A stretch of 64,000 nucleotides of DNA from Pasteurella bettyae CCUG 2042 (GTDB taxonomy: Bacteria > Pseudomonadota > Gammaproteobacteria > Enterobacterales > Pasteurellaceae): NCBI RefSeq assembly GCF_000262245.1, contig NZ_AJSX01000030.1:62001-126000 (forward strand), given 5' to 3'. Positions 37,539 through 52,703 of the stretch are shown in pieces; the first letter of the stretch is position 1; every line of letters begins with the position of its first letter. The notes below the pieces were generated by a model. It did not search any database. It was not told the DNA's origin and saw nothing but the letters and a program-made list of their open reading frames with translations. The position numbers were made by a program, and so were the translations under genes.

Positions 37539-37554
37539 TGGTGCCTGGGCGAGA
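37539..37554. repeat. attL: fragment of the tRNA-Leu 3' end
   Basis: TGGTGCCTGGGCGAGA matches the tRNA-Leu 3' end at 52687-52703 (TGGTGCTCTGGGCGAGA) except for one missing T. The deletion would break the acceptor stem, as expected for a copy no longer under selection. Confidence 0.75.
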
Positions 37555-37613
37555 AGCGATCTGATTAAATAACTTATTGAAATTAAATGATTATTTAATA
37601 TCTTCTGTTATAG

Positions 37614-37633
37614 CGTGTAACTAAATGTGTAAC
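37614..37633 (+). repeat. Left copy of a 20-bp direct repeat (probable integrase arm site)
   Basis: CGTGTAACTAAATGTGTAAC, identical but for one base to 52543-52562. Each copy holds two GTGTAAC units 12 bases apart. It lies about 60 bases inside attL, a usual place for tyrosine-integrase arm-type sites. Confidence 0.7.
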
Positions 37634-37690
37634 AATTAATTTCATTTTATGAAAATAACAAAATATGCCTATAATAAATTTTTTTTCTAT

Positions 37691-37797
37691 TTAACTCTTC
37701 ATCTCTTCACCTTTTCTAAAAAATAATTATATATCAATAAGTTATAGGGTGAAGAGTTAAAAACAACTATTCACCAACTCTTCACCACTCTTCACCC
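37691..37797. repeat. Left iteron cluster (GGTGAAGAGTT family)
   Basis: Contains a 21-bp element (37691-37711: AACTCTTCAT followed by CTCTTCACC) that is the exact reverse complement of 51211-51231. It also has GGGTGAAGAGTTAA (37747-37760), AACTCTTCACC (37776-37786) and ACTCTTCACCC (37787-37797). An AT-rich stretch lies between the copies, as in replication origins. Confidence 0.78.
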
Positions 37798-37879
37798 TTT
37801 CAGAAAATAAATTTTTACTGTCCTTTTGTATGGTTGCTGATCAAAAAATAATCAATCAAACTTTGCTTACTTATCATAA

Positions 37880-37975
37880 CTAAACGTATCTAAGCTATTA
37901 AAATTTAAGGTATTTACTTTAAATTTTATGTGCTTATATTGTGATATGGGCTACTTGTAGCCGTCTTAATTAAGA
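37880..37975 (+). promoter_or_regulatory. Regulatory region of the capsid operon
   Basis: CTAAACGTATCTAAGC (37880-37895) is one of four related CGYATCTA sites in the island, followed by a TAAAAT -10-like hexamer. Two perfect palindromes precede the ribosome site: GGCTAC-TT-GTAGCC (37949-37962) and TCTTAATTAAGA (37964-37975). Together with attL and the iterons these fill the 750-base gap between fabB and the capsid gene. Confidence 0.45.
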
Positions 37976-37994
37976 TGAGTTAAAGGACAAATTT

Positions 37995-39185
37995 ATGTTT
38001 AAAAAATTAATCGAGTTACGCCAACAAAAGGCAGAAAAAGTCGCAGAAATGCGTGCAATGCTTGATAAAGCAGAAAAAGAAAATCGTTCATTGGATGAAA
38101 CTGAATCAGTAGATTTTGATAAATTGAAAGATTTAGTGAAACAATTGAGTGATGAAATCAGTAAATACGAAACCGTAGCAGATGAAGAACGTAATCTTGG
38201 TGCGCAATCTAACCCATTAGAAACCCGCAGCACGAAACAATTTTCAAATGATGAATTGCGCCATTACATTAAAACTGGTGAACTTCGCAATTTAACGACG
38301 GCTAACGGTGAAGATGGCGGCTATTCTGTTATCCCTCAATTAGACAAAGAGGTCATGAAACGCTTAACAGATGATAGCGTCATGCGCCAGCTTTGTAATG
38401 TCGTTCGCTTGCCTATCGGTGCGAAAGAATACAAAAAATTAGTATCTGCTGGCGGTGCAACCGTTGAACATAGCACCGAGGGCACAGCACGCAACGGCAC
38501 AGCAACCCCTAAACTGCATGAAGTAACCATTGCATTAAATTCAATCTATGCTTATCCGAAAACCACGCAAGAAATCTTAGATTTTTCTTCTATTGATGTT
38601 TTAGGCTGGTTAACTGATGAAATCAGTGAATCATTCACTGAAACCGAAGAAAGCGATTTAACGTTAGGTGATGGCGATAAAAAATCAAAAGGTTTACTTG
38701 CTTATACCCGTTCAACTGATGGCGATAAAACCCGTACATTCGGACAACTTCAAAAAATGGAAGTGGCAAGCGCGGACAAAATCACTGCAGATAATTTGAT
38801 CGACTTGTTCTATATGCTGCACTCAAAATATCGTAAAAATGCAGTGTGGGTGATGTCTTCTACAATCGCTGCAATGTTACAAAAATTGAAAAATAAAAAC
38901 GGTGATTTTATTTGGCGTGATGGTTTAACTGCAGATGCACCCGCTACGCTTTTAGGTCGTCCCGTTCACTTCCTTGAAACATTGCCAGCAAGTGGCGCGA
39001 ATAAACCCGTTTTAGCCTTTGGTGACTTCAAGCGCGGTTATTTCATTGTTGATCATGAAACAGGCGTTCGCACTCGACCTGATAACATTACAGAACCAGG
39101 TTTCTATAAAGTTCACACCGATAAATATTTAGGCGGTGGCGTGGTGGATAGTAACGCAATCAAATTTATTGAGACGTTAGCTTAA
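37995..39185 (+). CDS. HK97-type major capsid protein
   Basis: Main shell protein of the satellite head. The N-terminal ~75 residues are charged and helical (coiled-coil delta scaffold domain), followed by a likely protease cleavage zone near residues 70-80. The HK97-fold core begins with GEDGGYSVIPQLDKEVMKRL near residue 103, and the family segments AYPKTTQEILDFSSIDV near 188 and MSSTIAAMLQKLKNKNGDFIW near 292 follow. The C-terminal FGDFKRGYFIVDHETGVRTRPDNITEPG is characteristic. Length 396 residues is typical. Unlike most siphoviruses, it comes before the protease and portal genes. AAAGGA precedes the ATG. Confidence 0.93.
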   Translation: MFKKLIELRQQKAEKVAEMRAMLDKAEKENRSLDETESVDFDKLKDLVKQLSDEISKYETVADEERNLGAQSNPLETRSTKQFSNDELRHYIKTGELRNLTTANGEDGGYSVIPQLDKEVMKRLTDDSVMRQLCNVVRLPIGAKEYKKLVSAGGATVEHSTEGTARNGTATPKLHEVTIALNSIYAYPKTTQEILDFSSIDVLGWLTDEISESFTETEESDLTLGDGDKKSKGLLAYTRSTDGDKTRTFGQLQKMEVASADKITADNLIDLFYMLHSKYRKNAVWVMSSTIAAMLQKLKNKNGDFIWRDGLTADAPATLLGRPVHFLETLPASGANKPVLAFGDFKRGYFIVDHETGVRTRPDNITEPGFYKVHTDKYLGGGVVDSNAIKFIETLA

Positions 39186-39197
39186 TCAACAATTCAT

Positions 39198-39220
39198 AAG
39201 GGGCATTAAGCCCCTTTTTT
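39198..39220 (+). terminator. Terminator between capsid and protease genes
   Basis: AAGGGGC and GCCCCTT arms with an ATTAA loop, then a T-run. It lies within the head operon, so capsid mRNA should exceed that of the downstream genes. Confidence 0.87.
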
Positions 39221-39242
39221 GTTAAAGGATACAAGAAAGAAA

Positions 39243-39806
39243 ATGAATCAGCAGAAATTTGAAATTCGTTCATCAGAAATCATCGCGGACGATCAGAAAT
39301 TAACGGGTTATGTTGTGAAATGGAACAGCCCTTCAGAAGTGCTTTACTGTGATTTTGTAGAATCCTTTGCGCCTAAGGCATTCAGTGAAAGTTTAGCCAG
39401 TGGCGAAGATGTTCGCGCACTCTTTGAACACGACTACACCAAGTTACTCGGTCGCACTAGTGCGGGAACATTAAAACTAGAAGAAGATTCAATCGGCTTA
39501 CGCTTTGAACTCACCCCGCCTAATACAACTATTGGGAAAGATTTATTAGTTAGCGTCTCGCGTGGTGATATTACAGGCATGTCCTTTGGATTTAGAGCCA
39601 GTCAAGAAGAATGGGATTTTGATGTAGAGCCTTGCCAACGAACTGTACAAAAAGCCGAACTCTTTGAGGTTACAGTAACAAGCATTCCCGCCTATCCTGA
39701 AAGTAGCGTAGAAATTGCTAAGCGTTCGATGATTGCAGCAAAAGAAAAAACACAAGAACATTCTACCGCACTTTTGAAACAGTGGCTTGATGTGATGGAG
39801 TCTTAA
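39243..39806 (+). CDS. HK97-family prohead protease
   Basis: Assembly protease (S78/U35 family) that removes the capsid scaffold domain. The ATG at 39243 is chosen over an upstream TTG. Family features are the opening FEIRSSEIIADDQKLTGYVVKWNSPSEVL, the catalytic histidine in ALFEHDYTKLLGRT near residue 65, and the serine in VSRGDITGMSFGF near residue 108. Length 187 residues fits. A USS near the 3' end (39765) hints at long residence in Pasteurellaceae. The stop is two bases from the portal start. Confidence 0.9.
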   Translation: MNQQKFEIRSSEIIADDQKLTGYVVKWNSPSEVLYCDFVESFAPKAFSESLASGEDVRALFEHDYTKLLGRTSAGTLKLEEDSIGLRFELTPPNTTIGKDLLVSVSRGDITGMSFGFRASQEEWDFDVEPCQRTVQKAELFEVTVTSIPAYPESSVEIAKRSMIAAKEKTQEHSTALLKQWLDVMES

Positions 39807-39807
39807 T

Positions 39808-41028
39808 ATGTGGAATCCTTTTAGACGAAAAGAGCAACGTAGCGAGCCAACCACAATAGAAGAGCTTTTATCTTACATGGGCATAAACAATACAGGTGCG
39901 GGCGAATTTGTCAGCCCACAAACTGCAGAATCGTTACCTGCCGTGATGAATGCCGTTACCGTCATTTCAGAGGCGGTCGCATCAATGCCTTGTTATCTAT
40001 ACGCACTAAAAGAAGATGGACGAGAAAGAATCTATCGTCATCCTGTTGAATATCTTCTCAATGAAATGCCAAACCGCAGCCAAACACCGTATCAATTCAA
40101 AAATACGATGATGCGCCATTGTTTGCTAAATGGTAACGCTTATGCCGTGATTGAGTGGAATAACAAGGGCGAACCAATAAGCCTTACTCCCTATCAACCC
40201 AGTGCGGTAAATATCTTCCGTAAAGTAACCGGTGAATATATTTATCAGATTACTGATTTAGACGGCAAAACGAAAAACTATCTACAAGACGAAGTTTTAC
40301 ATTTACGCCATAGTTCTGTTGATGGATTTATGGGGCGTTCTCCGATAACAGTTTGCCGTGAAACGGTGGGATTAGGTTTAGCCCAGCAACGCCATGGTGC
40401 AGCCATTATGAAAAACGGATTGATGGCAAGCGGGCTTATTTCAACAGCAGAATGGTTAGATGATGCGAAAGCACAGAAAGCCGTCAAAGCCCTTGAACGT
40501 TATAAGGGGGCAAAGAATGCGGGTAAAACGCCTATTCTTGAAGGCTCAATGGAATATAAACAATTAGGCATGACAAACCAAGATGCTGAATGGTTAGCTA
40601 GTCGCACGTTTACCATTTCCGATATAGCCCGAATCTACAATATTAGCCCGATTTTCTTACAAGATTATTCGAATAGTAGCTATGCGAATTTCAGTGAGGC
40701 AAGCCGCGCATTTCTTTCTCAAACCTTGCGCCCTTGGCTTACTAACTTTGAGCAACAACTCAAAGATGCCTTGATGATTGATTTAGGTAGCAACACCAAT
40801 AAACGTTACTTAATCGAATTTGATACAAGCGACTTATTGCGCACCAGTCAAAGTGAGCGCTTCAAGAGTTACGATGTGGCAATTAAAGCCGGTGTAATGT
40901 GCCCGAATGAAGTTCGCCGCCATGAAGGCTTACCGCCTTATGTTGGTGGTGATGAATTTAGCCAAGCATGGAAACAAACCGTAGAAGTGAAACAAGATAC
41001 AGGGGCGAGCGATGGCGGTAATGATTAA
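39808..41028 (+). CDS. Phage portal protein (HK97 family)
   Basis: Dodecameric ring through which DNA enters the head. It shows the HK97 portal pattern: N-terminal FVSPQTAESLPAVMNAVTVISEAVASMP near residues 31-58, RQTPYQFKNTMMRHCLLNGNAYA-like segment near 90-112, VLHLRHSSVDGFMGRSPI near 165, ISDIARIYNISPIFLQD near residue 271 and a charged C-terminus. Length 406 residues is typical. The adaptor gene overlaps its 3' end by 17 bases. No frameshift or truncation is seen. Confidence 0.92.
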   Translation: MWNPFRRKEQRSEPTTIEELLSYMGINNTGAGEFVSPQTAESLPAVMNAVTVISEAVASMPCYLYALKEDGRERIYRHPVEYLLNEMPNRSQTPYQFKNTMMRHCLLNGNAYAVIEWNNKGEPISLTPYQPSAVNIFRKVTGEYIYQITDLDGKTKNYLQDEVLHLRHSSVDGFMGRSPITVCRETVGLGLAQQRHGAAIMKNGLMASGLISTAEWLDDAKAQKAVKALERYKGAKNAGKTPILEGSMEYKQLGMTNQDAEWLASRTFTISDIARIYNISPIFLQDYSNSSYANFSEASRAFLSQTLRPWLTNFEQQLKDALMIDLGSNTNKRYLIEFDTSDLLRTSQSERFKSYDVAIKAGVMCPNEVRRHEGLPPYVGGDEFSQAWKQTVEVKQDTGASDGGND

Positions 41029-41368
41029 GGCGGGGAAATATAACAAGGTAATCACAATTCAGCGAAGAAATAAAGAAAAAGAAAAAGCCCGTAATTATGG
41101 TGAAACTAGAAAAACTGAATGGGAAGATGTTGCTACTGTTCACGCAAGTGTAGAACCAATACAAGGGCGAGAATATTTTAGCGGCCCGTTTCAATTAGGT
41201 GAAGATATTATTCGAATAAGAATTCGTTATTTACCTAATATTAACCGAAGAATGCGGGTTAAGTATGGTGAACGATTGTTAGAAATTAATGCTGTAATTG
41301 ACAGTAAAGAAGAACACAAAGAACTTCAGTTAATGTGTAAGGAGAATTCTCTAAATGCTTATTTCTAA
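41012..41368 (+). CDS. Head-tail adaptor / head closure protein
   Basis: Phage head-tail joining family (SPP1 gp16/HK97 gp7-like) of 118 residues. The opening MAVMIKAGKYNKVITIQRRN, the WEDVATVHASVEPIQGREYF segment near residues 37-56, and the repeated beta-strand pattern (IRIRIRYLPNINRRMRVKYGERLLEINAV) are the family features. The ATG at 41012 follows AGGGG at 6 bases. It should close the filled head and offer a docking face for a helper-derived tail. It overlaps the portal gene and the following connector gene. Confidence 0.85.
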   Translation: MAVMIKAGKYNKVITIQRRNKEKEKARNYGETRKTEWEDVATVHASVEPIQGREYFSGPFQLGEDIIRIRIRYLPNINRRMRVKYGERLLEINAVIDSKEEHKELQLMCKENSLNAYF

Positions 41369-41672
41369 TTTAATTGAACTAGGTGAAGTTAAAGCGCAAT
41401 TAAGTATCGACCATAACTTAGATGATACGCTACTAAATGGCTACATAGTGGCAGCGATTGAAGTTGCTCAAAAGCATATCGGGAAAACTTTCGGAGATAG
41501 TGACACAGAAAAAACAATCGTATTCAATCAAGCGATTAAAGTCGGTTGCTTGATGTATATCGCTTACTTATATGCTAACCGTGAAGCCGTGACAGATTTA
41601 GCTAATCTTAAGCCAGCCCCAATGACTATTTCAGCATTATGGGAAGTATATAGAGAACCGTGCGTTTATTAG
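41355..41672 (+). CDS. Head-tail connector protein (gp6-like)
   Basis: Small helical protein of 105 residues in the phage gp6/DNA-packaging connector family, which binds beneath the portal. Typical segments are LGEVKAQLSIDHNLDDTLLNGYIVAAIEVAQKHIG near residues 8-42 and an Ala-rich helix VGCLMYIAYLYANRE near 74. It overlaps the adaptor gene by 14 bases. The family order is usually connector then adaptor; here the adaptor precedes it. Confidence 0.83.
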   Translation: MLISNLIELGEVKAQLSIDHNLDDTLLNGYIVAAIEVAQKHIGKTFGDSDTEKTIVFNQAIKVGCLMYIAYLYANREAVTDLANLKPAPMTISALWEVYREPCVY

Positions 41673-41682: not shown

Positions 41683-42039
41683 ATGCCAGCTCAACCTTTA
41701 AGACGTTGTACCTATCCTAACTGTAGAAATCGTGTTAAGTCTGGACGATGTGAAGAACATAAACCGAAAGACACAAGGGAAAGCAGTAGCAAGCGTGGCT
41801 ACGATCAAAAATGGCGTAAGTATAGAACTGAATATCTAAAGCATAATCCGTTATGTGTGATGTGTTTAGAGAAAGGCAAATATACGCCCGCAACAGTTAT
41901 CGACCATATTCAACCTGTAGAGAATGGACAAGCAGATCCGCGCTTTTGGGATATAAACAATCATCAGCCTTTATGCCGTGATTGTCATAGTTATAAAACA
42001 AGAATTATAGATAAGCGCGGATATGGTGCGAAGAAATAA
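41683..42039 (+). CDS. HNH endonuclease of the packaging module
   Basis: HNH nuclease encoded next to terminase genes in cos-type phages, where it assists TerL/TerS in cutting packaged DNA ends. The ββα-metal core is visible as VIDHIQPVENGQADPRFWD near residues 70-88, followed by NNHQPLCRDCHSYKT near 89-103. Cysteine pairs CTYPNC (near 9) and CVMC (near 58) with CRDC suggest structural zinc. Length 118 residues. It lies upstream of terS across a 140-base gap with a G/C-run inverted repeat. Confidence 0.9.
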   Translation: MPAQPLRRCTYPNCRNRVKSGRCEEHKPKDTRESSSKRGYDQKWRKYRTEYLKHNPLCVMCLEKGKYTPATVIDHIQPVENGQADPRFWDINNHQPLCRDCHSYKTRIIDKRGYGAKK

Positions 42040-42082: not shown

Positions 42083-42136
42083 GGTGGGGGGAGTTTTGAA
42101 AAGAGATGTGTAAGCGTTGGAGACCGCCCCCCCCAC
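42083..42136. other. G-run/C-run inverted repeat, candidate cos or packaging site
   Basis: GTGGGGGG (42084-42091) and CCCCCCAC (42129-42136) are perfect complements separated by 37 bases, in the gap between the HNH gene and terS. It is a striking GC block in AT-rich DNA. Cos sites of HNH/TerS/TerL phages usually lie near these genes; an attenuator for terS is the alternative. Confidence 0.45.
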
Positions 42137-42179
42137 TTAATTTTTATGTAAGGCAATTTTTTTGAAAATAAGGAAATGT

Positions 42180-42548
42180 ATGAGTAAGAGAAGAAACTAT
42201 AAAACCCCTGATTTTTTAGATGGTATCGCTAAAACCCAATGGAAAAGTCGAATTAAACAACTTTCAGAGCGTGGCGATATTAAAGCAGAAGATTTAACGA
42301 ACCTTGAAATTTATTGCGAAAACTACGCAATTTGGCGTCATTCCGTAGCAGATTTAGCCAAAAATGGCTTTATTATTGTGAATAGTCAAGGCACGCAATC
42401 AAGAAATCCAGCTTTGTCAGCGAAAGCAGATGCCGAAAAGGTGATGATTAAGATGTCATCATTGCTAGGTTTCGACCCTGTAAGCCGCAGAAAAAATCCT
42501 ATTGAAGTAGATGAGAACGATATCTTAGATGAAATCCTAACAATGTAG
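42180..42548 (+). CDS. terS: Terminase small subunit (P27 family)
   Basis: DNA-recognition subunit of the packaging motor. The ATG at 42180 follows AAGGA by 5 bases and starts MSKRRNYKTPDFLDGIAKTQWKSRIKQL. The P27-type helical segment LTNLEIYCENYAIWRHSVADLAKNG (near residues 39-63) and the tail KADAEKVMIKMSSLLGFDPVSRRK (near 83-106) are present. Length 122 residues. It should direct the island's own DNA, rather than helper DNA, into island capsids. terL follows after 7 bases. Confidence 0.88.
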   Translation: MSKRRNYKTPDFLDGIAKTQWKSRIKQLSERGDIKAEDLTNLEIYCENYAIWRHSVADLAKNGFIIVNSQGTQSRNPALSAKADAEKVMIKMSSLLGFDPVSRRKNPIEVDENDILDEILTM

Positions 42549-42555: not shown

Positions 42556-44223
42556 ATGGAAATATGGCACGCATACGCAGAGAAAATCAAATCTGGTGAG
42601 TTAGTGGCTTGTAAGAAGATAAAACAAGCCGTAGAGCGTTATTTTAACGATTTAAACAATCCCGATTATTTCTTTGATGATGGAGCGGTTAATAAGTTTT
42701 TAGCTTTCTCGAAACTATGCCCGCACGTTAAAGGACACTTACGCGGACAGCCTATTATCCTTTCAGATTGGCAAGTCTTTCTCTTTGCCAACATTCTAGG
42801 CTTTAAGCGTAAAGACACAGGATTAAGAAAATATCGCTCCGCTTACGTTCAAGTAGCCCGTAAAAATGCGAAATCAACAATCGCTGCAGTTTTGGCTAAT
42901 TGGTTTTTATTGGCTGAAGATGGTCAGCAAGATATTTACACTGCAGCAGTAAGCCGTGATCAAGCCCGAATTGTTTTTGATGATGCGCGTCAGATGTGTT
43001 TATTGTCACCATTATTAAGAAAACGGGTAAACATTCAGCAACATAAAATGATCTACCCGAAAAATAACAGCTTAATGCGCCCGTTGGCTGCCAAATCAAG
43101 CACCATTGAGGGAACTAACCCAAGCCTTGCGATTGTGGACGAATATCACTTACACGCTGATAACAGCGTATATAGCGCATTAGAGCTAGGGCAAGGAGCA
43201 CGCCCTGAAGGTTTACTCTTTGCGATTACAACTGCAGGAAGTAACACAATTTCAGCCTGTAAGCAGCATTATGATTATTGCTGCCAAATTCTAGACGGCA
43301 ACGAACAGAATGACAGTATTTTCATCATGATTTTTGAACTGGACGAAGAAAGCGAAATAGACGATCCGCAAAACTGGATTAAAGCGAACCCCAACATAGG
43401 AAAATCTATTCCTTTCCTTGATTTTGAAAACACTATTAAAAAAGCCCGTGGCATTCCGTCAGAGTGGGTAGAAATGCTTACCAAGCGTTTTAATGTATGG
43501 TGCAACGGTCAAACACCGTGGCTAAATTTAGATGCGTGGGCATTGTGTAAGCGAGATTATTCAGAAAGCGATTTACTGCACCTTGATTGTTATATGGGGC
43601 TAGACTTATCCAGCACAAGCGATTTAACCTGCGTATGCTATACCTTTCCCCATGAAAACAAAGTGCGGTTATATTGCCGTCATTATATCCCTGAATATCA
43701 ACTTCAGAACGTGGCAAATAAAAACCGTGCTATCTATCGTCAATGGGTGCGCCAAGGTTGGTTACAGACAACGCAAGGCGATTGTATTGATTATGACAAA
43801 ATACGCGATGATATTCTGAAAGATGCTGAACGTTTCAATATCAAGATGACAGGCTTTGATGTATGGAACGCAACTCATTTACGAACACAATTACAAAGTG
43901 CGGGGCTTGAAGTAGAGCCATTCCCGCAAACATACCAACGATTTAGCCCTGTAGCAAAATCAGCAGAAGTGCTAATCAACCGCCAAGCAATCGAACACAA
44001 CGGCGATCCCGTTCTTGCGTGGGCGTTATCTAATGTAGTGATGGAAACAGACGCAAACGCCAACATAAAACCAAATAAGAAGAAAGCAGCAAACAAAATC
44101 GATCCCGCTATAGCGTTCTTGATGTCATTCGGCACTTATCAACTTGAATATGGCGATTTGATTTTCGAGCTTTCAGATGAACATAAACACGCATTAGAAC
44201 AATTTAATGGTATTGATTTATAA
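42556..44223 (+). CDS. terL: Terminase large subunit (HK97-like)
   Basis: ATPase and nuclease of the packaging motor. A deviant Walker A, VARKNAKST, is near residue 101, as in HK97-type TerL. Walker B with catalytic acid is LAIVDEYHLH near residue 191, and a C-terminal RNase H-like nuclease domain starts around CYMGLDLSSTSDLTCVCY near residue 345, with further acids in FDVWNAT near 436. Length 555 residues. No tail genes follow. Two USS-like sequences (exact at 43661) lie inside. Confidence 0.94.
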   Translation: MEIWHAYAEKIKSGELVACKKIKQAVERYFNDLNNPDYFFDDGAVNKFLAFSKLCPHVKGHLRGQPIILSDWQVFLFANILGFKRKDTGLRKYRSAYVQVARKNAKSTIAAVLANWFLLAEDGQQDIYTAAVSRDQARIVFDDARQMCLLSPLLRKRVNIQQHKMIYPKNNSLMRPLAAKSSTIEGTNPSLAIVDEYHLHADNSVYSALELGQGARPEGLLFAITTAGSNTISACKQHYDYCCQILDGNEQNDSIFIMIFELDEESEIDDPQNWIKANPNIGKSIPFLDFENTIKKARGIPSEWVEMLTKRFNVWCNGQTPWLNLDAWALCKRDYSESDLLHLDCYMGLDLSSTSDLTCVCYTFPHENKVRLYCRHYIPEYQLQNVANKNRAIYRQWVRQGWLQTTQGDCIDYDKIRDDILKDAERFNIKMTGFDVWNATHLRTQLQSAGLEVEPFPQTYQRFSPVAKSAEVLINRQAIEHNGDPVLAWALSNVVMETDANANIKPNKKKAANKIDPAIAFLMSFGTYQLEYGDLIFELSDEHKHALEQFNGIDL

Positions 44224-44238: not shown

Positions 44239-44706
44239 ATGGCAGTTCAAATAAAAGGCTTGAGAGAACTTGAGCAAAACTTAAAAAAACTAAACAAGGA
44301 TATAAACAAAGTCGCTGCAAAAGCAATTAGAAAAGGACTAAATAGCGCGGCCAAATCGATTGAAAAAACAATCAAGCCGAATGTTCCAACGTTGAAGACA
44401 AGTACCAATTTCCGACAAAAAGGAACTATTAAAAACAACGTTCGACATAAAACAAGGGTAGCTAAAGATGGCTTAAGTGGTATCACTGCAATTCGAGTTA
44501 TGCGAACAAACGGCCGTAGAATGGCAAAAATTGGGGAAAATACGCGAGATAAATCAGATCCGTTTTACTGGTGGATGGTTGAATATGGCACAGTAAAAAT
44601 GAAAGGTCGCCATTATATGGAAAAAGGCTTTAAATCTGGTGAGGCACAGGCTCTGAAGATTGCAAAAGAAGTTGCAGAAGAAGAATTTAAAAAAGCGTTC
44701 AAATAA
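44239..44706 (+). CDS. HK97 gp10-like protein (head-tail junction)
   Basis: Family found after head-closure genes in siphophages, thought to act at the neck or tail terminator. The N-terminus MAVQIKGLRELEQNLKKLNKDINKVAAKAIRKGLNSAAK and the segment DKSDPFYWWMVEYGTVKMKGRHYMEKGF near residues 99-126 are typical. Length 155 residues. It lies after terL rather than after the adaptor. It could provide the interface that lets a helper tail attach. A strong terminator follows, ending the head operon. Confidence 0.8.
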   Translation: MAVQIKGLRELEQNLKKLNKDINKVAAKAIRKGLNSAAKSIEKTIKPNVPTLKTSTNFRQKGTIKNNVRHKTRVAKDGLSGITAIRVMRTNGRRMAKIGENTRDKSDPFYWWMVEYGTVKMKGRHYMEKGFKSGEAQALKIAKEVAEEEFKKAFK

Positions 44707-45361: not shown

Positions 45362-45383
45362 AGGAATAATTAATCAAATAAAG

Positions 45384-45468: not shown

Positions 45469-46491
45469 ATGACAATTAAAACTTCATTAAGCAATAAAAG
45501 ATTTAGCTTTTCTTTAGAGAAAGCATTGGACTACATTAACAATAGAATTGATGAAAAAATTAATTTAGATGATTTGTTATATTTCATAAAGGATGGGCAG
45601 GTTAAAACTGTAATCAAGATTGTTTGCGGTTCTCTTGGTGGACGGTTATTTTTAACTTCTATAGGTGATGTAAATTATTTACAACCTGTATATTTTATTC
45701 CCTGTGGCGGATTAAGAATAAAACACAACGTTAAAACATATAGAAAGCACAAAGGAGTAGATATTAGTAAAGATATTTTTGGCTCTTGCGCCTGCTTTTC
45801 ATCATCAGCCCCAAACCAAAAAAGAAGTATATCTAGGTACAAAAACATAAATATTCAATTTGAAGTTAAAAATTCAAAACGAGAAATAAATCTGACAAAA
45901 GATATATATCCTAATGTTGATTTTTTTGGGTGGTTTTATATTAGCCCTTCAAGTTATACAGGAAAAGAAAAAAATATAATAAAATCTGACTCAATATTTA
46001 TTGATCCAATTGATAAGTTTGTCAGCGCCAGTGATGACGATGTAGAAATACAATTTATTCTAACAGATGAAGATGATGATCTGTATGTAGATCTTCCCAA
46101 AATTGAGGTTAGTTTAGACTCCATTGAAATTTTAAAAAAAGATTTAGATGTATTTTTAGAATTAGAAAAAGATGTTGGGAAAAATTATACTGACTACGAA
46201 AATGAAATAAAAAACTTACGCCAACAACTAGAGATAAAAGACAATCAGATAACTAAACTAAAGAACAATTATAATAATAAAAACATTCCAATTTTATTGA
46301 GTGCCTATAGAACTGACGATCCTTTAAAGATAGCCATAGAGGTCAGAAATAAATACTGGGCAAATTATCCAGATAATGTAAAAAGTAATACTCAAATTAG
46401 AGATTATATAATAAGGGATTATCGCGTTACTCAAACCCTTGCCACAGAGATAGAAAAAATAGCTTGTCCAATTAATAGAAAGAAAAACTAA
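45469..46491 (+). CDS. Unknown 340-aa cargo protein with coiled coil
   Basis: I do not recognise the family. The N-terminal ~40 residues are helical; about 45-215 look globular and beta-rich with several cysteines (IPCGG, GSCACFSS) and an FFGWFYISPSSYTGKE segment near 146. Residues about 215-265 form a predicted coiled coil (YENEIKNLRQQLEIKDNQITKLKNN). The last ~75 residues form a separate helical module, KIAIEVRNKYW through EIEKIACPIN, of a kind seen attached to other phage accessory proteins. Base composition is more AT-rich than in its neighbours, a sign of separate acquisition. Its ribosome site lies in a predicted RNA stem. It is a candidate phage-interference gene, unproven. Confidence 0.72.
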   Translation: MTIKTSLSNKRFSFSLEKALDYINNRIDEKINLDDLLYFIKDGQVKTVIKIVCGSLGGRLFLTSIGDVNYLQPVYFIPCGGLRIKHNVKTYRKHKGVDISKDIFGSCACFSSSAPNQKRSISRYKNINIQFEVKNSKREINLTKDIYPNVDFFGWFYISPSSYTGKEKNIIKSDSIFIDPIDKFVSASDDDVEIQFILTDEDDDLYVDLPKIEVSLDSIEILKKDLDVFLELEKDVGKNYTDYENEIKNLRQQLEIKDNQITKLKNNYNNKNIPILLSAYRTDDPLKIAIEVRNKYWANYPDNVKSNTQIRDYIIRDYRVTQTLATEIEKIACPINRKKN

Positions 46492-46595: not shown

Positions 46596-46669
46596 CTCGT
46601 AACGTTACGCAACCAATCGAGTTATTGAATAGCTCAATGTCATTAATCAACAATTATAGAGGTTACGAG
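46596..46669 (+). promoter_or_regulatory. alpA upstream operator candidates
   Basis: A perfect 12-bp palindrome CGTAACGTTACG lies at 46598-46609. CTCGTAAC (46596-46603) recurs inverted as GTTACGAG (46662-46669), touching the alpA start codon. The pair suggests a repressor or autoregulatory site bracketing the alpA promoter and leader. Confidence 0.5.
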
Positions 46670-46891
46670 ATGAACGAAGCTCAAAAATTAAATCTGAAAT
46701 TAAACCCTCAACAAAAACTAATCTCTGGTGAAACCGCTTGCCATATTGTTGGCTTTGGTCGCACCAAACTCAACGAGCTTGTAAAAGCTAAGAAATTCCC
46801 TCAACCGATCCGCTTTTCACAAAACTTTGTTCGTTGGGATTTAGAAGAAGTGAATCAATGGATTGAAGAACAGAAGGCTGCACGTGCTTAA
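46670..46891 (+). CDS. alpA: AlpA-family transcriptional regulator
   Basis: MerR-like helix-turn-helix protein of 73 residues, the usual activator of P4-like satellites and PICIs, also acting as excisionase in some. The start is the ATG at 46670 with GAGG 7 bases upstream. The sequence ISGETACHIVGFGRTKLNELVKAKKFPQPIRFSQNFVRWDLEEVNQWIEE covers nearly the whole winged HTH, with the conserved F-P-x-P and R-W elements. It probably switches on the downstream replication genes and perhaps excision. The stop overlaps a possible small ORF. Confidence 0.92.
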   Translation: MNEAQKLNLKLNPQQKLISGETACHIVGFGRTKLNELVKAKKFPQPIRFSQNFVRWDLEEVNQWIEEQKAARA

Positions 46892-46985: not shown

Positions 46986-47936
46986 ATGGGTGGTTACAAA
47001 ACTATTTTATCAGAAATCTTTATAAAAAACACTTTACAAAGTGCGGTGAAATGTGGCATTATTTCCCTGCAGTCGCAAAAAACGACTGCCGAGCCTCGAA
47101 ACTCGACTTATTTACAATTGGCGCAGAGCACGCCTAAAGCGTGTTTTTTTATGCGTAACATTCGCACACCTAAAGAATTTGCGGATTTTGTTTTTATTCA
47201 TCAAATCTACAAATCTCTCTCAATGGTAGCGTGTAGCGGTAAAGGTTCGCCCTTTGCTGTGTTCCAATTGTCGCAGTTTTCGAGACCGTTACACGTTACC
47301 GCCAAAGCCTCGAAACTTTCCGCGGTAACTCTCAAGTGTTTACAATTGGAGTTACTCAAAATGTATCAATTCATTTTTGCGGCTATTCGCCGTACCGATC
47401 TAACCAATCAAATTCAAAAAATTCGCATCACTGCCGACACAGAACAAGCGGCACGCTCCCAATTCGCCCGTGATTTTATTCTTGTGCTTGCCGGCAAAAT
47501 CAATCTTCAAAACACCGTGAAAAACAACCGCACTTTTTCAACTAATGGAAATAATCACAGCTTGCCAGCAGGGCGGAATGTGGGTAATATTGAAAGCACT
47601 ACTACTATCGAGGGCAACCGCAACCCTTATCAATGCGGTATTTTTTTACCTAAAATTCATTCCTTGCACTCTCCTAAAAAATTAGGTGCGTTGTCTCATA
47701 TCGAATTTGCGGTACAGATGATAAGCCGAAATAAGGCGGAGTTTATCCGCACGAATAAGGCTAGCCGTTCGATAGCGGTAGTTGAGTCTGTATCGCACCC
47801 AATTCAGGGCGATACTCTTACATTAACTAAATCTATCGGAAATCCAACAATGAAAATCTACCCTCAAAACAACCGCACTTTAGCGGCACTTCCTACCCTT
47901 TCTGTATCTGCTGAAATGGAGGTGGCACATGCTTAG
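46986..47936 (+). CDS. Host cell division inhibitor Icd-like / Ash-family protein
   Basis: The frame runs 316 residues from an ATG with a very strong site (AAGGAGG, 46973-46979). The recognisable part begins MYQFIFAAIRRTDLTNQIQK at 47361, with RITADTEQAARSQFARDFILVLAGKINLQ after it. This is the segment shared by Icd-like proteins of P4/P1-type elements, and a second start at 47361 has GGAG upstream. The first 125 codons overlay the seqA-seqB-seqC RNA elements and an attenuator, so their peptide sequence may not matter. The C-terminal ~180 residues are low in recognisable motifs. Toxic inhibition of division is assigned only by family name. It overlaps the next gene by eight bases. Confidence 0.65.
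   Translation: MGGYKTILSEIFIKNTLQSAVKCGIISLQSQKTTAEPRNSTYLQLAQSTPKACFFMRNIRTPKEFADFVFIHQIYKSLSMVACSGKGSPFAVFQLSQFSRPLHVTAKASKLSAVTLKCLQLELLKMYQFIFAAIRRTDLTNQIQKIRITADTEQAARSQFARDFILVLAGKINLQNTVKNNRTFSTNGNNHSLPAGRNVGNIESTTTIEGNRNPYQCGIFLPKIHSLHSPKKLGALSHIEFAVQMISRNKAEFIRTNKASRSIAVVESVSHPIQGDTLTLTKSIGNPTMKIYPQNNRTLAALPTLSVSAEMEVAHA
47069..47349 (+). ncRNA. P4-type immunity RNA region (seqA, attenuator, seqB, seqC)
   Basis: Two segments share the words GCCTCGAAACT and TTTACAATTGG: seqA at 47093-47121 and seqC at 47307-47349. Between them, CCAATTGT (47264-47271) and TTTTCGAG (47277-47284) are complementary to parts of both, as seqB of the P4 CI RNA is. seqB lies in the loop of a stem GCGGTAA (47236-47242)/TTACCGC (47296-47302), with an inner AAAGG/CCTTT hairpin. 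A hairpin (GCAGTCG/CGACTGC, 47069-47089) precedes seqA, and a terminator CACGC/GCGTG plus seven T (47129-47150) follows it. The layout fits premature termination controlled by an antisense-like RNA. Confidence 0.68.
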
Positions 47937-48258
47937 TTATGGCACTATTCAAATGGCATTAAATGACGTAGTTGCTCGTGATGATATTGATGAAATGGAG
48001 CTTATAAAGTTACGTAAAGAAAGCGAAATGCTTTGCGAAACTATCGAGTTAGGACTAATGGAATTAGGCGATATGGTAAGCTGTTTAGGGCATTTTGCTG
48101 ATTCTAAGCAGGGTTTTGATAATCAAGCGATGAGCAATGACAATGTAAAACATATCGGAGCATTAATTCAGGCCAACGCATATTTTCTAAACACATTGCG
48201 CAATGTATCAGCAGACGCCACCTATCACCTTAACAGTGGAAATAAGGGGGCGAAATGA
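47929..48258 (+). CDS. Small island protein of unknown function (109 aa)
   Basis: Acidic, helical protein without membrane segments or cysteine motifs of known type. The middle part, LIKLRKESEMLCETIELGLMELGDMVSCLGHFAD, is a likely helix, and the C-terminal half contains MSNDNVKHIGALIQANAYFLNTL. I do not recognise a family. It overlaps the Icd-like gene by eight bases and the next gene by four (ATGA), so it belongs to the AlpA-Pri replication operon. A regulatory or replication-accessory role is plausible from position only. Confidence 0.68.
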   Translation: MLSYGTIQMALNDVVARDDIDEMELIKLRKESEMLCETIELGLMELGDMVSCLGHFADSKQGFDNQAMSNDNVKHIGALIQANAYFLNTLRNVSADATYHLNSGNKGAK

Positions 48259-48458
48259 TGAGTAACACTAAATTCCCTTATAGCCTTGTTTTTACCTATG
48301 ACAACGGCGACCAATTCACAGCAGGGCAATATTGTTCACTTAGAGACGCACTACAAGCCAAAATCAGGGCGAAAGCTGAGATTGGCGAAACAGATATTAC
48401 CGGCAGACGTTTAGAAACTATCACCGTTTTAACGGAGGGCGACAATGAAACCAACTAA
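48255..48458 (+). CDS. Small island protein of unknown function (67 aa)
   Basis: A 67-residue protein starting MMSNTKFPYSLVFTYDNGDQF, with a mixed alpha/beta look and a central helix SLRDALQAKIRAKAEIG. Two adjacent ATG codons overlap the previous stop, and its own 3' end overlaps the next gene by 14 bases, which argues for genuine coupled translation. No family recognised. It is one of four small genes between the Icd-like gene and the primase. Confidence 0.6.
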   Translation: MMSNTKFPYSLVFTYDNGDQFTAGQYCSLRDALQAKIRAKAEIGETDITGRRLETITVLTEGDNETN

Positions 48459-48945
48459 TCCAATGGCACAGCTTGAGCAATGGAAAGCTAACCATAAAGC
48501 CACCAGCAACAACGAAACTCAAAATGAATCGGTTAAAAATACGCAAGGAAACGCACGTAGCGAGGTTAAAAGCAAATATCAAGGGAAACTATACGCTAAT
48601 CCATTAGCCTTTAAATGTAGCCAGTTTACGCGCCAATTCAAGTTGATTTTAGATAGCAACCGCAAGTGTTTAGAGGTTTATCCCGATGACTTCCATCACA
48701 AAATCAAGTTTAGAGATGAACTTACTGATTTAGTGGTGAGATTAAAAACAGGCGGAAAGTTATTTAATGAAATGGTTAAGGCGCAAGGTGCAAAACTTAG
48801 CTCAAATAACCAAGAAACAATCAGAAACTTTAATCAAGCTAATGACTACTTAATCCATAAGTTCGGTGAAGTTATCGCACAAATAAACCAACTCAATATT
48901 GAACGCATTGAGGGTGATAAATTGCAAGGGGGAAATAATGAGTAA
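48445..48945 (+). CDS. Island protein of unknown function (166 aa)
   Basis: Hydrophilic, largely helical protein. The first ~45 residues are low-complexity and Asn/Ser-rich; the rest (AFKCSQFTRQFKLILDSNRKCLEVYPDDFHHKIKFRDELTDLVVRL) is probably a folded helical domain. No signal peptide, membrane segment or known catalytic motif is visible. It overlaps the genes on both sides (14 and 8 bases). Position in the replication operon suggests a DNA-metabolism or regulatory role, without direct support. Confidence 0.65.
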   Translation: MKPTNPMAQLEQWKANHKATSNNETQNESVKNTQGNARSEVKSKYQGKLYANPLAFKCSQFTRQFKLILDSNRKCLEVYPDDFHHKIKFRDELTDLVVRLKTGGKLFNEMVKAQGAKLSSNNQETIRNFNQANDYLIHKFGEVIAQINQLNIERIEGDKLQGGNNE

Positions 48946-49330
48946 CACTGCTTTTATTTTAACTGCTGGCTATCACGTTATTGATGATTTATTTATGCTG
49001 ACTGTTGTCGCAATGCGAGAAAGCAAAGGGGATATTTTAAGCCTTCATCGCGCTTATGCTCGACAAGGGAAACTCACAAATATCAGAGCCATTAATTTAA
49101 ACCATTACACACTAGAAATTAGCTTAGGCAATGCACGCGCGCCCATTATTCACGCAGAGGGAAGAAGAGAACGTGCGGAGGCTGAGGAGGCGATAGCGCC
49201 TTTTAAAACAATCTACCCTACTGCTCAAATTCGAGTGATTCAGTTCAAGGACGCATTTTTATTTAAGCAATGCGCAGGAATTGGATTAGGGATTGATGCG
49301 GAGCAAGGAGGCAAACAATGGCTAAATTAA
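48938..49330 (+). CDS. Island protein of unknown function (130 aa), upstream of the primase
   Basis: The ATG at 48938 is chosen because AAGGGGG lies 5-11 bases upstream; the longer frame from 48899 lacks this. The protein begins MSNTAFILTAGYHVIDDLFMLTVVAMRES and contains ARAPIIHAEGRRERAEAEEAIAPFKTIYPTAQIRVIQF. It looks like a compact alpha/beta domain. No family recognised. It overlaps the primase start by 13 bases, indicating coupled translation with Pri-Rep. Confidence 0.65.
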   Translation: MSNTAFILTAGYHVIDDLFMLTVVAMRESKGDILSLHRAYARQGKLTNIRAINLNHYTLEISLGNARAPIIHAEGRRERAEAEEAIAPFKTIYPTAQIRVIQFKDAFLFKQCAGIGLGIDAEQGGKQWLN

Positions 49331-51087
49331 TCAATGCACCGCACCTTGCGGATCAACCACATGAACCTTACTCTGATATTTTTATTCTTGCTGGGCGTAA
49401 AGCCTGGCAAGCATGGGATAAAGGAAAGGGTGAAGAATGGCTCTTGTTATGTTCTTTAATTTACGGATTAGATAGAAATATAAAACCAGTTATTCTTGCT
49501 GAAAACCAGTTAGAGAATATTTCTTCTATCCGCATAGTAAAAGAAGATCAACAATCAGTAAAACTTGTTCAATATGGTGAACTGGCACAAGCTGAAATAA
49601 CGGCTATTTGTCAAAACTTAGCTAAAAACTCTAATGCGATAGATGTCAAACTTCTTGATGCTGCAGCGCAGACTAAAGAAGATTTAAGTGGTTATATTCA
49701 ACGCTTACGCAATGATAAAGAGACTGCAGATCTCGCAGAGCAATTAGCACCGCCAGAGAAATTAAAAGAAAAAGACGGAACGAACAAAAAATCACGAGCC
49801 TTTCAAAAGTGGTTAAATTTAGATATGTCACTACAGCGTGGTTGCAGAGAAATCTATGCTTATGATGGCAAAACGTGGAATAAACAAGAAAATGATGACT
49901 TGGAAGAGAAAGCAGTTAAATTTCTTGATGAAAATGAATTTAACTATAGCGATTCTACAATAGATCGTTTGATCAACACGCTAAAAGCCCAACTTCCCCG
50001 AATGGGCGAAACTTCTAGCGATTTAATCGCTTTTGATAATGGCGTACTAAACCGTAATACATTGGAATTTGAACCGCATAACCGTCAAAATTGGTTAACG
50101 GCTTGTATCCCCCATAATTATGATGAACAGGCAACAAATACACCGCACTTTGATAAGTGGCTGAACTTTGTATCAGATGGAAACAAAGAGAAAGCAAGAA
50201 ACATTTTAGCCGTGTTATATGCGATTTTAACCAATCGCTATAACTGGCAGATATTCTTTGAAATCACGGGGAAAGGCGGTAGCGGGAAATCTGTTTTTGC
50301 GAGTATTGCAACGCTATTAGCTGGTGATAAAAATACTGCATCTAGCAAATTAGAAAATTTTGATGATGAACGGGGGTTAGCAGGGCTTGAAAATAAAATG
50401 CTGATTATTTGCGCTGAACAAGCTAAATATGGTGGAGATGGTGGCGGATTAAAAGCAATTAGTGGCGGTGATACAGTAAGAGTACGTTATAACTATAAAG
50501 ATCCGTTCAATACGAAAATCACGGCTTTAGTTATGCTGATAAATAACGAACCTTGCCGATTTACCGAACGTTCGGGCGGTATTAATCGCAGACGCGTGAT
50601 TTTTGACTTCAAAAAGAGTGTTCCTGAAGATGAACGGGATTCGCATTTTATGGATAAAATCACTCTTGAAGTAGGCGGAATTATTCGTAAAGTGCTTGAT
50701 ACATTCTCTGAACCAACAGACGCAAAAAAAGCTTTAATGGCGCAGATGAATAGCCAAGAAGCCTTAGAAGTGAAAAAGTTATCCGACCCACTTACAGACT
50801 TCTTCGGATATTTCTACACTACAGAGCAAATGAATGGGCTTTTTATTGGCGTGGCGAATATGGGGCTTGATAGAATCAGAACGCATCTTTACCCCGCTTA
50901 TTTAGCTTACACAAGGGCAATGAATATCAGTGAATTAGGCTTAAGAAACTTTGTAACGGGCATTGAGCAAGCCTTAAAACAACATGGGAATGAATATGAT
51001 TTTATAAAGAAATCTACTAAAACAGGAGTGCGAACGAATGTTCATTACAAGGATTTTGATAACTTTCGGAATGAGGTATCAAATTAA
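49318..51087 (+). CDS. Pri-Rep: P4-like primase/SF3 helicase replication protein
   Basis: Replication initiator of the island. The C-terminal half is a D5/P4-alpha type SF3 helicase: Walker A EITGKGGSGKSVFAS near residue 317, Walker B-like NKMLIICAEQ near residue 362, motif C TALVMLINNEPCRFTERSGGINRRRVIF near residues 402-430. The N-terminal ~180 residues hold an accessory or degenerate primase region without a clear zinc finger. A P4-type DUF5906 helicase is the closest description. The iteron cluster directly downstream (51134-51231) is its likely binding site. Length 589 residues, with no tell-tale disruption. Confidence 0.87.
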   Translation: MAKLINAPHLADQPHEPYSDIFILAGRKAWQAWDKGKGEEWLLLCSLIYGLDRNIKPVILAENQLENISSIRIVKEDQQSVKLVQYGELAQAEITAICQNLAKNSNAIDVKLLDAAAQTKEDLSGYIQRLRNDKETADLAEQLAPPEKLKEKDGTNKKSRAFQKWLNLDMSLQRGCREIYAYDGKTWNKQENDDLEEKAVKFLDENEFNYSDSTIDRLINTLKAQLPRMGETSSDLIAFDNGVLNRNTLEFEPHNRQNWLTACIPHNYDEQATNTPHFDKWLNFVSDGNKEKARNILAVLYAILTNRYNWQIFFEITGKGGSGKSVFASIATLLAGDKNTASSKLENFDDERGLAGLENKMLIICAEQAKYGGDGGGLKAISGGDTVRVRYNYKDPFNTKITALVMLINNEPCRFTERSGGINRRRVIFDFKKSVPEDERDSHFMDKITLEVGGIIRKVLDTFSEPTDAKKALMAQMNSQEALEVKKLSDPLTDFFGYFYTTEQMNGLFIGVANMGLDRIRTHLYPAYLAYTRAMNISELGLRNFVTGIEQALKQHGNEYDFIKKSTKTGVRTNVHYKDFDNFRNEVSN

Positions 51088-51091
51088 AAAT

Positions 51092-51116: not shown

Positions 51117-51133
51117 ATGACTGTTCACCCTTT

Positions 51134-51231
51134 GGGTGAAGAGTTGGTGAAGAGTTAAATCCAACTGATCACCGCTTAATTTATTGATTTATAATGAAAA
51201 AATTGCCAAAGGTGAAGAGATGAAGAGTTAA
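51134..51231. repeat. Right iteron cluster, candidate replication origin
   Basis: GGGTGAAGAGTT (51134-51145) is followed directly by GGTGAAGAGTTAA (51146-51158). A 21-bp copy at 51211-51231 (GGTGAAGAGA then TGAAGAGTTAA) is exactly the reverse complement of 37691-37711. AT-rich DNA lies between. In SaPI-like islands the origin adjoins the rep gene and consists of such iterons around an AT-rich stretch. Confidence 0.78.
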
Positions 51232-51259
51232 AGATAAAAAAAGTTTTTTAATATACTAA

Positions 51260-52486
51260 TTATAAATTTAAGTTCATTCCGCATTGTTCGCAATAGTCAC
51301 CTATAAGCTGCATTACAGGCTTTCGCTCTTCTAAATAATCATAGCGATTGTAAGTATTTTCTAATTCGTCCCCACCTTCCAATAAATGAGAAAGAACGGT
51401 TTCAGATACGTTACGTTCAATTTTTTTAGATGCTAAGAATGTTTTAATAAAAGCGCGTATTCCGTGGGCAGTGAGTTTACCCTTATAGCCGATACGTTTT
51501 AGAGCTACATTTACGGTTGCTTTATTCATGGGTTGATTTTTTGATGAGCGACCAGCAAAAACAAAAGAGCTATTTTCAGAAAACATTTTCATGACTTCTA
51601 ATAATTGGATTGCTTGAGATGATAACGGCACAGTATGCGCGCGTTTTTTATCTGCTTTCCCTTTCATTTTCTCTTTAGGAATATGCCATAGCTTATTAGT
51701 AAAATCGATTTCAGACCATTCAGCATTAACGGCTTCATTAGGGCGCAGGGCTGTTAAGAAAGACCAACAAATTAGTAAATAAGTTTTCTTTTCTATGCGG
51801 GCGTTAGCTAAATCTTGAAATAATTTAGGCAATTCATCAGATTTAATCGTAGGGTGGGGAGTAGATGATTTTATATGAAAATTCTTTACAGCTAATCTAC
51901 AGTTATGGCTTTCTATAATGCCTTGCGTAATAGCATGATCCATAATGGCACTTACAAGCTGATGTATTTTTTTCAGTGTGTTACTTCTATCTGCTATTTT
52001 TTCATAAATGCTTACTAATTCTTTAACTTTGATTTCTGATACGTGTGTATCACCAATATAAGGGAATATATGATTTTCTAGGCGTTCCCAATTCTTTTTT
52101 CGTGTTTCTGGATTTTTGGCTTTTTCTTTGTAAATACCGCTGAAGTAGCTTTCAGCAACAGAACGAAAGGTATCTTTCAGACGGCTTTCATGTTCTTGCT
52201 GAATGCGTATTTTTTCTTGTTGCGGATCTATATCTTTCGCAAGTAGAGAACGATATTCTTCACGTTTTGCCCGCGCGTCAGAAAGTAATAGAGCAGGATA
52301 ATGCCCGATAGTTAGATTTGTTCTTTTATTCGTAATAGGGGATATGTAGTTAAAAATCCATATTTTAGATCCTGTAGGTTTCACTCTAAGAATTAGCCCG
52401 TTACCGTCAGCTAATATATATTCTTTGTCTTTTGGTTTAGCATTTTCTATTTGAGTTTTGTTTAGTGCTTTGGTTGTTCTAGCCAT
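51260..52486 (-). CDS. int: Tyrosine integrase (P4-like, DUF4102 N-terminus)
   Basis: Site-specific recombinase inserting the island at leuU. The N-terminal DUF4102 arm-binding part includes LADGNGLILRVKPTGSKIWIFNY (residues ~25-47) and LTIGHYPALLLSDARAKREEYRSLLAKDIDP. Catalytic residues are visible as Arg in LTALRPNEAV near 246, His and Arg in AHGIRAF near 343, LSHLLEGG near 366, and the nucleophile Tyr in ENTYNRYDY near 379. Length 408 residues. It is transcribed away from the tRNA, on the opposite strand to the rest of the island. A regulated promoter region with arm sites lies between it and leuU. Confidence 0.94.
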   Translation of the reverse strand: MARTTKALNKTQIENAKPKDKEYILADGNGLILRVKPTGSKIWIFNYISPITNKRTNLTIGHYPALLLSDARAKREEYRSLLAKDIDPQQEKIRIQQEHESRLKDTFRSVAESYFSGIYKEKAKNPETRKKNWERLENHIFPYIGDTHVSEIKVKELVSIYEKIADRSNTLKKIHQLVSAIMDHAITQGIIESHNCRLAVKNFHIKSSTPHPTIKSDELPKLFQDLANARIEKKTYLLICWSFLTALRPNEAVNAEWSEIDFTNKLWHIPKEKMKGKADKKRAHTVPLSSQAIQLLEVMKMFSENSSFVFAGRSSKNQPMNKATVNVALKRIGYKGKLTAHGIRAFIKTFLASKKIERNVSETVLSHLLEGGDELENTYNRYDYLEERKPVMQLIGDYCEQCGMNLNL

Positions 52487-52542
52487 ATTTTGATCTTACA
52501 AGATGTTAGACACAGAATAATTTATAGTAACACGTTTCAAAT

Positions 52543-52562
52543 CGTGTAACTAAACGTGTAAC
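52543..52562 (+). repeat. Right copy of the 20-bp direct repeat (integrase arm site)
   Basis: CGTGTAACTAAACGTGTAAC differs by one base from 37614-37633. It lies about 125 bases inside the tRNA end, just upstream of int. Confidence 0.7.
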
Positions 52563-52582
52563 TAAAATTTGCGATAGGAAAT

Positions 52583-52600
52583 GTTTAGATACGTTTAGCT
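52583..52600 (-). promoter_or_regulatory. CGTATCTA motif upstream of int
   Basis: Read toward int the sequence is GCTAAACGTATCTAAAC, nearly the same as the site upstream of the capsid operon (37880) and in the same orientation relative to its gene. It is about 100 bases upstream of the int start. Confidence 0.45.
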
Positions 52601-52612
52601 AAGATAAGAAAA

Positions 52613-52641
52613 AAGCCTGTAAACGTTGATTTTACAGGCTT
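52613..52641 (-). terminator. Replacement terminator for leuU carried by the island
   Basis: AAGCCTGTAAA and TTTACAGGCTT form an 11-bp stem with a seven-base loop; in the leftward direction a T-run follows. It terminates the secG-leuU transcript now that the original site has been displaced 15 kb. Confidence 0.85.
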
Positions 52642-52686
52642 TATCAGATTTTTTCGTTTAGCTGTGTTGAGCTAAATTTAGTCAAA

Positions 52687-52703
52687 TGGTGCTCTGGGCG
52701 AGA
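52687..52703. repeat. attR core inside tRNA-Leu
   Basis: TGGTGCTCTGGGCGAGA forms the 3' end of the tRNA and its T-arm edge; it pairs with attL at 37539-37554. Confidence 0.72.

Follow-up and report, generated by a model that had tools for sequence, protein, structure and literature searches.

The question raised by this locus is whether a compact set of phage head genes, lying without a tail module in a bacterial chromosome, is what is left of a prophage or a satellite that builds heads of its own. The window analyzed here is a stretch of 64,000 nucleotides from Pasteurella bettyae CCUG 2042 (contig NZ_AJSX01000030.1), and the element in question spans 15.2 kb of it, positions 37539-52703. 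Our reading, to which we assign a probability of roughly 0.9, is that this element is an intact capsid-forming phage-inducible chromosomal island (cf-PICI), with a proposed cycle that is silenced by RNA and dependent on a helper tail. It is based on the gene set, the insertion, the phylogeny, an RNA with covarying targets, a conserved cos-like element, and an association between the head closure protein Hc1 and a gp10-like gene. Capsid-forming PICIs, reportedly described by Alqurainy et al. in 2023, carry genes between bacteria on borrowed phage tails. The kind is already known, Pasteurella included (PMC10803314), and the element is a further member of it.

A complete head and packaging module

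The element contains 19 open reading frames (ORFs), every one open and of normal length. These comprise nine head and packaging genes of the HK97 type, two accessory genes, an AlpA-type regulator, an Icd-like gene, four small ORFs, a P4-family primase-helicase, and a tyrosine integrase, the last being the sole ORF on the opposite strand. Genes and RNAs are on the + strand unless noted. The module opens with the HK97-fold major capsid protein (37995-39185; PF05065, TIGR01554), which matches PDB 9gyi with an E-value of 7e-135, followed by the prohead protease (39219-39806; PF04586, TIGR01543), portal (39808-41028; PF04860, TIGR01537), head closure protein Hc1 (41012-41368; PF05521, phrog_25), and the head-tail adaptor, or connector, Ad1 (41355-41672; PF05135, TIGR01560, phrog_40). 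Packaging is represented by an HNH endonuclease (41683-42039; PF01844, phrog_144), a P27-family terminase small subunit, TerS (42180-42548; PF05119, TIGR01558), and the terminase large subunit, TerL (42556-44223; PF20441, PF03354, and tree placement). The last of the nine is an HK97 gp10-like tail-completion/Neck1 protein (44239-44706; PF04883 above cut-off, phrog_5 with an E-value of 1e-21). The original prediction, made by a model from the sequence, had called this set intact. Each named gene is indeed an intact ORF at its family cut-off, with NCBIfam in agreement for the head genes, TerS, and the primase, and the one adjustment concerns TerS, whose start was refined to 42180. Family matches were likewise obtained for the predicted AlpA (46625-46891; PF05930, phrog_66), P4-like primase-helicase (49318-51087; D5_N, Pox_D5, TIGR01613), and tyrosine integrase (51260-52486, - strand; PF00589, PF13356).

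Tail-tube, tape-measure, fiber, and lysis genes were not found in the element, and tail queries returned 0 matches in the window. The predicted absence of tail and lysis genes holds with one qualification, namely that the gp10-like gene is itself a tail-completion gene. A cf-PICI is defined by its own capsid, protease, portal, and head-tail connectors (PMC10690885). The element has all of these, along with its own TerS, TerL, and HNH, an integrase, an AlpA-type regulator, a primase, and a specific att site. Its size also fits an island of ~14 kb free of tail and lysis genes, the gp10-like gene being the only exception.

Head genes could also be found in a classical PICI whose capsid merely redirects the helper head or mixes with it, as first proposed for PmCI172. 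This P. multocida island has a capsid homologue and 38-nm heads, and its small particles held helper DNA too (PMC6092414). Here, however, the set is complete and intact from capsid, protease, and portal through Hc1, Ad1, and HNH to TerS and TerL, the block is conserved across two orders, and a TerL and portal of its own would be needless to a redirector. We consider this explanation improbable.

The HNH-TerS interval holds a candidate cos site (42083-42173, + strand) of the form GGTGGGGGGAGTTTT..CCGCCCCCCCC..AATTTTTATG..GCAATTTTTTTGAAAATAA, conserved in both Pasteurellaceae and Enterobacterales cf-PICIs. In nearly all relatives inspected, the interval reads GGTGGGGG.AGTTTT, a spacer, and then CCGCCCGCCCCCTCAAATTTTTACGCACGG.AATTTTTTTGAAAATAA. 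Both ends of the linear record LR881103 fall around the matching interval, which is consistent with these being virion ends and with the interval being a candidate cos site.

Insertion at tRNA-Leu and candidate origin

The predicted borders, 37539 and 52703, coincide with two att copies. The right copy, attR (52687-52703), reads TGGTGCTCTGGGCGAGA from 52687 and is the 3' end of a tRNA-Leu(GAG) gene (52687-52772, - strand) that adjoins the integrase end of the element; this 3' end is the insertion point. The left copy, attL (37539-37554), is an imperfect copy of the same tRNA end, TGGTGC-CTGGGCGAGA. Insertion can also be read independently of the att copies from the empty site of a relative, G017, where a terminator lies right behind tRNA-Leu. 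In the window, the same terminator, recognized as the homologous hairpin (37472-37501, - strand), has been displaced by 15.2 kb to the left of attL. The right flank, with the tRNA and a secG-like gene, is retained in most family members searched. The fabB-like gene (beta-ketoacyl-ACP synthase) of the left flank is located elsewhere in the family members searched, and local synteny past the terminator therefore varies among genera.

Iterons of the type GGTGAAGAGTT occur 3' of the primase (51135-51230), where they form a candidate origin, and ahead of the capsid gene, so placed that they flank int/att on the circle. The cluster ahead of the capsid, CTCTTCACC/GGTGAAGAG (37693-37796), has 9-mers in common with the primase-integrase interval and could be the other half of a bipartite origin. 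Some relatives have element-specific variants with the same core on both sides (GGTGAAGAC, GGTGAACAA, and GGTGAACAC), and in many relatives no 9-mer is shared between the two intervals. The iterons resemble the origin repeats of P4, which are of the GGTGAA type.

Relatives and phylogeny

Approximately 50 Pasteurellaceae loci have the order capsid, protease, portal, Hc1, Ad1, HNH, TerS, TerL, (gp10-like), accessory genes, alpA, Icd, and primase, closed by a reversed integrase; in a minority, the integrase is co-directional and stands ahead of the capsid. Enterobacterales elements, including that of E. coli O157:H7 (L165), run from a forward integrase through regulator, Icd, primase, and capsid to TerL. 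Placed on a circle, the two gene orders are identical, with the int/att point shifted and the integrase reversed: it lies between TerL and the regulator in Enterobacterales and between primase and capsid in the window. The O157 capsid is nearly identical to PDB 9gyi. A TerL 100% identical to that of the window is found in a 15,242-bp IMG/VR contig, which most likely comes from the same genome; the element has therefore already been flagged by pipelines. The same syntenic block is present in records annotated as phages, Pmp8 (15.3 kb) and vB_KppS-Ant (16.5 kb); vB_KppS-Ant is an induced prophage.

Trees that included eight full-size siphophages and myophages for comparison place the satellites in one clade for TerL (support 100, stem 1.19), capsid (86), and portal (73), such that head and packaging proteins are separate from those of ordinary phages. 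TerL proteins at least 70% identical to that of the window occur in 4 of 50,697 phage records. The three that were inspected are satellite-like records of 10-17 kb, and the fourth is the 106-kb Klebsiella P12620-1. The next TerL of an ordinary phage among the matches listed is 36% identical.

These trees also bear on the possibility that the element is what remains of a full prophage after loss of its tail and lysis genes, to which the phage-like head genes and the presence of other prophages in the host might point. The identical tail-less set is present in dozens of species, where its ORFs are intact and it has att ends of its own; the TerL, capsid, and portal clade is free of full-size phages in these samples; and there are no tail genes nearby. 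A remnant of this kind is very improbable. A split prophage, in which the missing genes are linked elsewhere, was rejected on the 0 tail matches in the window and the separate clade of the satellites. Neither finding by which the original prediction could have fallen, linked tail or lysis genes or trees that place the element among full-size prophages, turned up, and gene content, insertion site, size, and phylogeny agree with the cf-PICI it had proposed.

Several further records were observed among the relatives. Four plasmid-filed records of 16-17 kb from Arsenophonus and Klebsiella (NZ_CP038627, NZ_CP123539, CP018459, and NZ_CP069874) contain a cf-PICI-like TerL with ~70-72% identity, and are possibly sequenced excised circles. 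In two loci, a cf-PICI head module is directly followed by another terminase and portal set, of HK97-like type, a satellite beside a prophage. The Macca loci contain several cf-PICIs, in part in tandem.

An antisense RNA with covarying targets

Rfam models identify isrK, C4, and int-alpA RNAs in the element, the latter two also in relatives. The C4-type antisense RNA (47219-47306; RF01695, 59.7 bits) lies between alpA and the primase. It folds with a z-score of -5.6 and exposes an open loop, b' (47264-47271), containing UUCCAAUUGU, with a second arm, a', at 47278-47284. The loop complement, ACAATTGG, is found twice. One copy begins at 47114 in the leader RNA (47069-47150; isrK match, RF01394), ahead of a terminator hairpin (47128-47150), and the other at 47342, over the Shine-Dalgarno sequence GGAG (47348-47351) of the ORF that starts at 47361. 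The second arm, CTCGAAA, is adjacent to both sites. In the leader, the a and b targets are 47095-47101 and 47114-47121, and in the downstream region (47309-47351) they are 47309-47315 and 47342-47350. The leader is assigned from its Rfam match, complementarity, and fold, and the C4 RNA from Rfam, fold, and trans-covariation. It has the two features that characterize a C4 RNA, the C4 fold itself and loops that can pair with sites near the ribosome-binding site of the next gene. That next gene, an Icd/Ash-like ORF (47361-47936; phrog_1743/6928, weak PF10554), is the first of the early operon. Four small ORFs of 109, 67, 166, and 143 amino acids follow (47929-49330), with homologues in relatives and no family assignment.

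The 8-nt loop is hypervariable, with 31 loops over 59 contexts, and an exact match is present at 90 of 118 target sites (shuffle mean 4.6, maximum 17). In a second set, fetched independently but including partly the same elements, 80 sites from 35 genomes gave 73 exact upstream and 54 exact downstream matches, compared with 6 and 4 of 2480 when loops were swapped. The predicted RNA control circuits take the form of a C4-type RNA whose targets covary with its loop. This RNA probably keeps the element silent, with loop and targets changing together between elements; the repression and its direction are inferred. In P1, RNase P processes the RNA at GGW and b' covers the ribosome-binding site (PMC5320573).

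For C4-like RNAs of Acinetobacter whose loops have diverged, an action on other RNAs has been proposed (PMC5320573), and the window RNA might similarly target other elements or the mRNAs of the host instead of its own operon. This is highly unlikely, given that two cis targets covary with the loop across 31-32 specificities and that one of them covers the Shine-Dalgarno sequence of the next gene. It has been called unclear whether a global repressor exists in Gram-negative PICIs (PMC6092414). The C4-type RNA is a strong candidate repressor of these satellites, and the element and its relatives thereby offer something concrete, an antisense RNA with matched targets, whose covariation suggests how the cf-PICI class controls itself.

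Exclusion of elements of the same specificity was considered and found unsupported. Strong superinfection immunity would require the C4 loops within one genome to differ, and this prediction failed: 11 of 57 within-genome pairs share a loop, compared with 2.25 expected. The shared loops come in part from duplicated elements and from pairs with a different a' arm. Two C4 RNAs approximately 0.5 kb apart were seen in each of three elements, with different loops in two of them, and one Pasteurellaceae genome, probably that of strain Macca, has 29 matches to the C4 model.

Candidate tail docking genes

In lambda and SPP1, the counterpart of HK97 gp10 is the tail-completion protein (PMC11661146). 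Across 55 distinct elements, Hc1 sequences are closer within than between classes defined by presence of the gp10-like gene (0.095, p<0.0005), with no such likeness in capsid (0.003) or portal (0.002), these two proteins of the same elements being the only control for phylogeny. Approximately 30 relatives have a phrog_37 tail terminator ahead of the capsid, and this gene co-occurs with the gp10-like gene (29:3 vs 4:10, Fisher p 5e-5). The gp10-like presence tracks the Hc1 allele and not the capsid, and the tail terminator co-occurs with it, a pattern suggestive of a docking cassette that recombines separately from the head. The link between Hc1 allele and tail-completion gene is a testable rule for which helper tails suit which satellite heads. 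Many Enterobacterales cf-PICIs carry a tail-protein-I-like gene right after TerL, which is possibly a tail-assembly interference or docking gene; in four of the inspected loci and others, the gene in this position is 40-66% identical to tail protein I of HK97/lambda.

We lean slightly toward a broader proposal in two parts. Pasteurellaceae cf-PICIs and related alpA/primase islands would be silenced not by a protein repressor but by P4/P1-type antisense RNAs, with dozens of specificities and two cis targets each, one before the terminator and one on the Shine-Dalgarno sequence of the first early gene. In addition, exchangeable tail-docking genes (Hc1 allele, gp10-like, and tail terminator), independent of the capsid, would tune the fit to helper tails. 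What specialists may not expect is the RNA specificity system, together with the family-wide docking association.

Possible helpers and proposed cycle

Three other tape-measure genes are present in the host genome, in one P2-like and two Mu-like prophages as assigned from ORF sequences and order, and these are possible tail donors. The siphophage (lambda-type) tail families PF05100 and PF06791 were not found in the host genome, and the capsid family of the element occurs in the island and nowhere else in it. One of the Mu-like prophages is interrupted by an element that encodes a serine recombinase along with a MobA/MobL-like relaxase (L193:4328-9450).

Several points weigh against an active cf-PICI under RNA control. 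The tail donors found in the genome are all contractile, one of them interrupted by the mobile element, and the gp10-like protein is of the siphophage type, unlike these donors. Even with a permissive threshold, a search for a C4 RNA in the O157 element of E. coli found none, and RNA control is therefore not universal among cf-PICIs. The RNA model also matches alpA/Icd/primase islands that are possibly not capsid-forming; with matches in 85 of 140 Pasteurellaceae genomes, often in alpA/Icd/primase contexts, the RNA is therefore a control module of a wider island group.

The contractile donors raise the possibility of an intact-looking cf-PICI that is stranded, a compatible helper tail being absent from this host. 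EcCIEDL933 is likewise not mobilised by the prophages of its own host (PMC11389934). However, infecting phages can help, and PmCI172 of P. multocida uses the tails of a Mu-like helper (PMC6092414). Stranding is consistent with the cf-PICI assignment, and we regard it as possible but unlikely.

For a cf-PICI, the cycle would proceed as follows. In the integrated state, transcription that runs from the leader upstream of 47069 into the early operon would yield the C4-type antisense RNA, whose loop b' would pair with the leader site just ahead of the terminator and with the Shine-Dalgarno sequence of the Icd-like ORF. Translation of this ORF would be blocked, and transcription would halt ahead of the primase. 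A helper signal would override the block, with AlpA the likely activator by the precedent of EcCICFT073. Following such induction, integrase and AlpA would excise the element, and the P4-type primase would replicate it from the iterons flanking int/att on the circle. HNH, TerS, and TerL may then cut the cos-like site between HNH and TerS, and packaging would fill presumably small heads made of the element's own capsid, protease, and portal. Hc1, Ad1, and the gp10-like protein would prepare the tail junction, and a resident or infecting phage would supply the tail and lysis.

Accessory region

Between the gp10-like gene and alpA are a small membrane protein (44981-45361), with homologues in relatives and no family above its cut-off, an int-alpA RNA motif (45382-45448; RF02996, 38.1 bits) in the same place as in relatives, and orf340 (45469-46491). 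The latter belongs to a divergent family of 14 members that recurs at the alpA slot in many relatives, with no Pfam, PDB, or fold match. Its AlphaFold model (pLDDT 72) has an N-terminal helix-strand domain, a coiled coil, and a C-terminal helical bundle, and neither PDB nor viral libraries gave it a significant match; PADLOC also returned 0 matches. Perhaps orf340 is a regulator or cargo.

Comparison with known systems

The Enterobacterales cf-PICIs L165 and vB_KppS-Ant resemble the element in the internal order of the head-packaging block, the P4-type primase, the integrase, and size, and share the cos-like element, with TerL 68-70% and capsid ~56-62% identical. They differ in having a co-directional integrase between TerL and alpA, whereas that of the window is reversed and lies between primase and capsid. 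The window element also has the gp10-like tail-completion gene and a C4 RNA, the latter undetected in L165 and L163. Closer still are Pasteurella Pmp7/Pmp8 and the P. multocida cf-PICIs, with the same family and rotated layout (TerL 86-87%, capsid 84%), although Pmp8 has a tail terminator gene ahead of the capsid (phrog_37) that the window element lacks. Compared with an ordinary HK97-type prophage, which has tail and lysis modules, the element has no match to either.

Of the satellites, P4 has an antisense RNA immunity region and a P4-family primase, both also present in the window element, and it has GGTGAA-type iterons that those of the element resemble. Among the 19 proteins there was no Pfam match for P4 sid, psu, or delta, though no dedicated search was made. 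P4, unlike the element, does not itself encode a capsid. Classical Gram-negative PICIs (Fillol-Salom 2018) are defined as lacking phage structural genes and are unidirectional with int at the left end; the element has such genes, and its integrase is reversed at the right end. PmCI172 is likened here by its description as a satellite of Pasteurellaceae that encodes a capsid homologue, has 38-nm heads, and uses a Mu-like helper (PMC6092414). In the immunity systems of P4 and P1/P7 (CI and C4 RNAs), as in the window, a leader target is followed by the antisense RNA and a Shine-Dalgarno target, but in the family of the window element the loop specificities are numerous and depend on the element.

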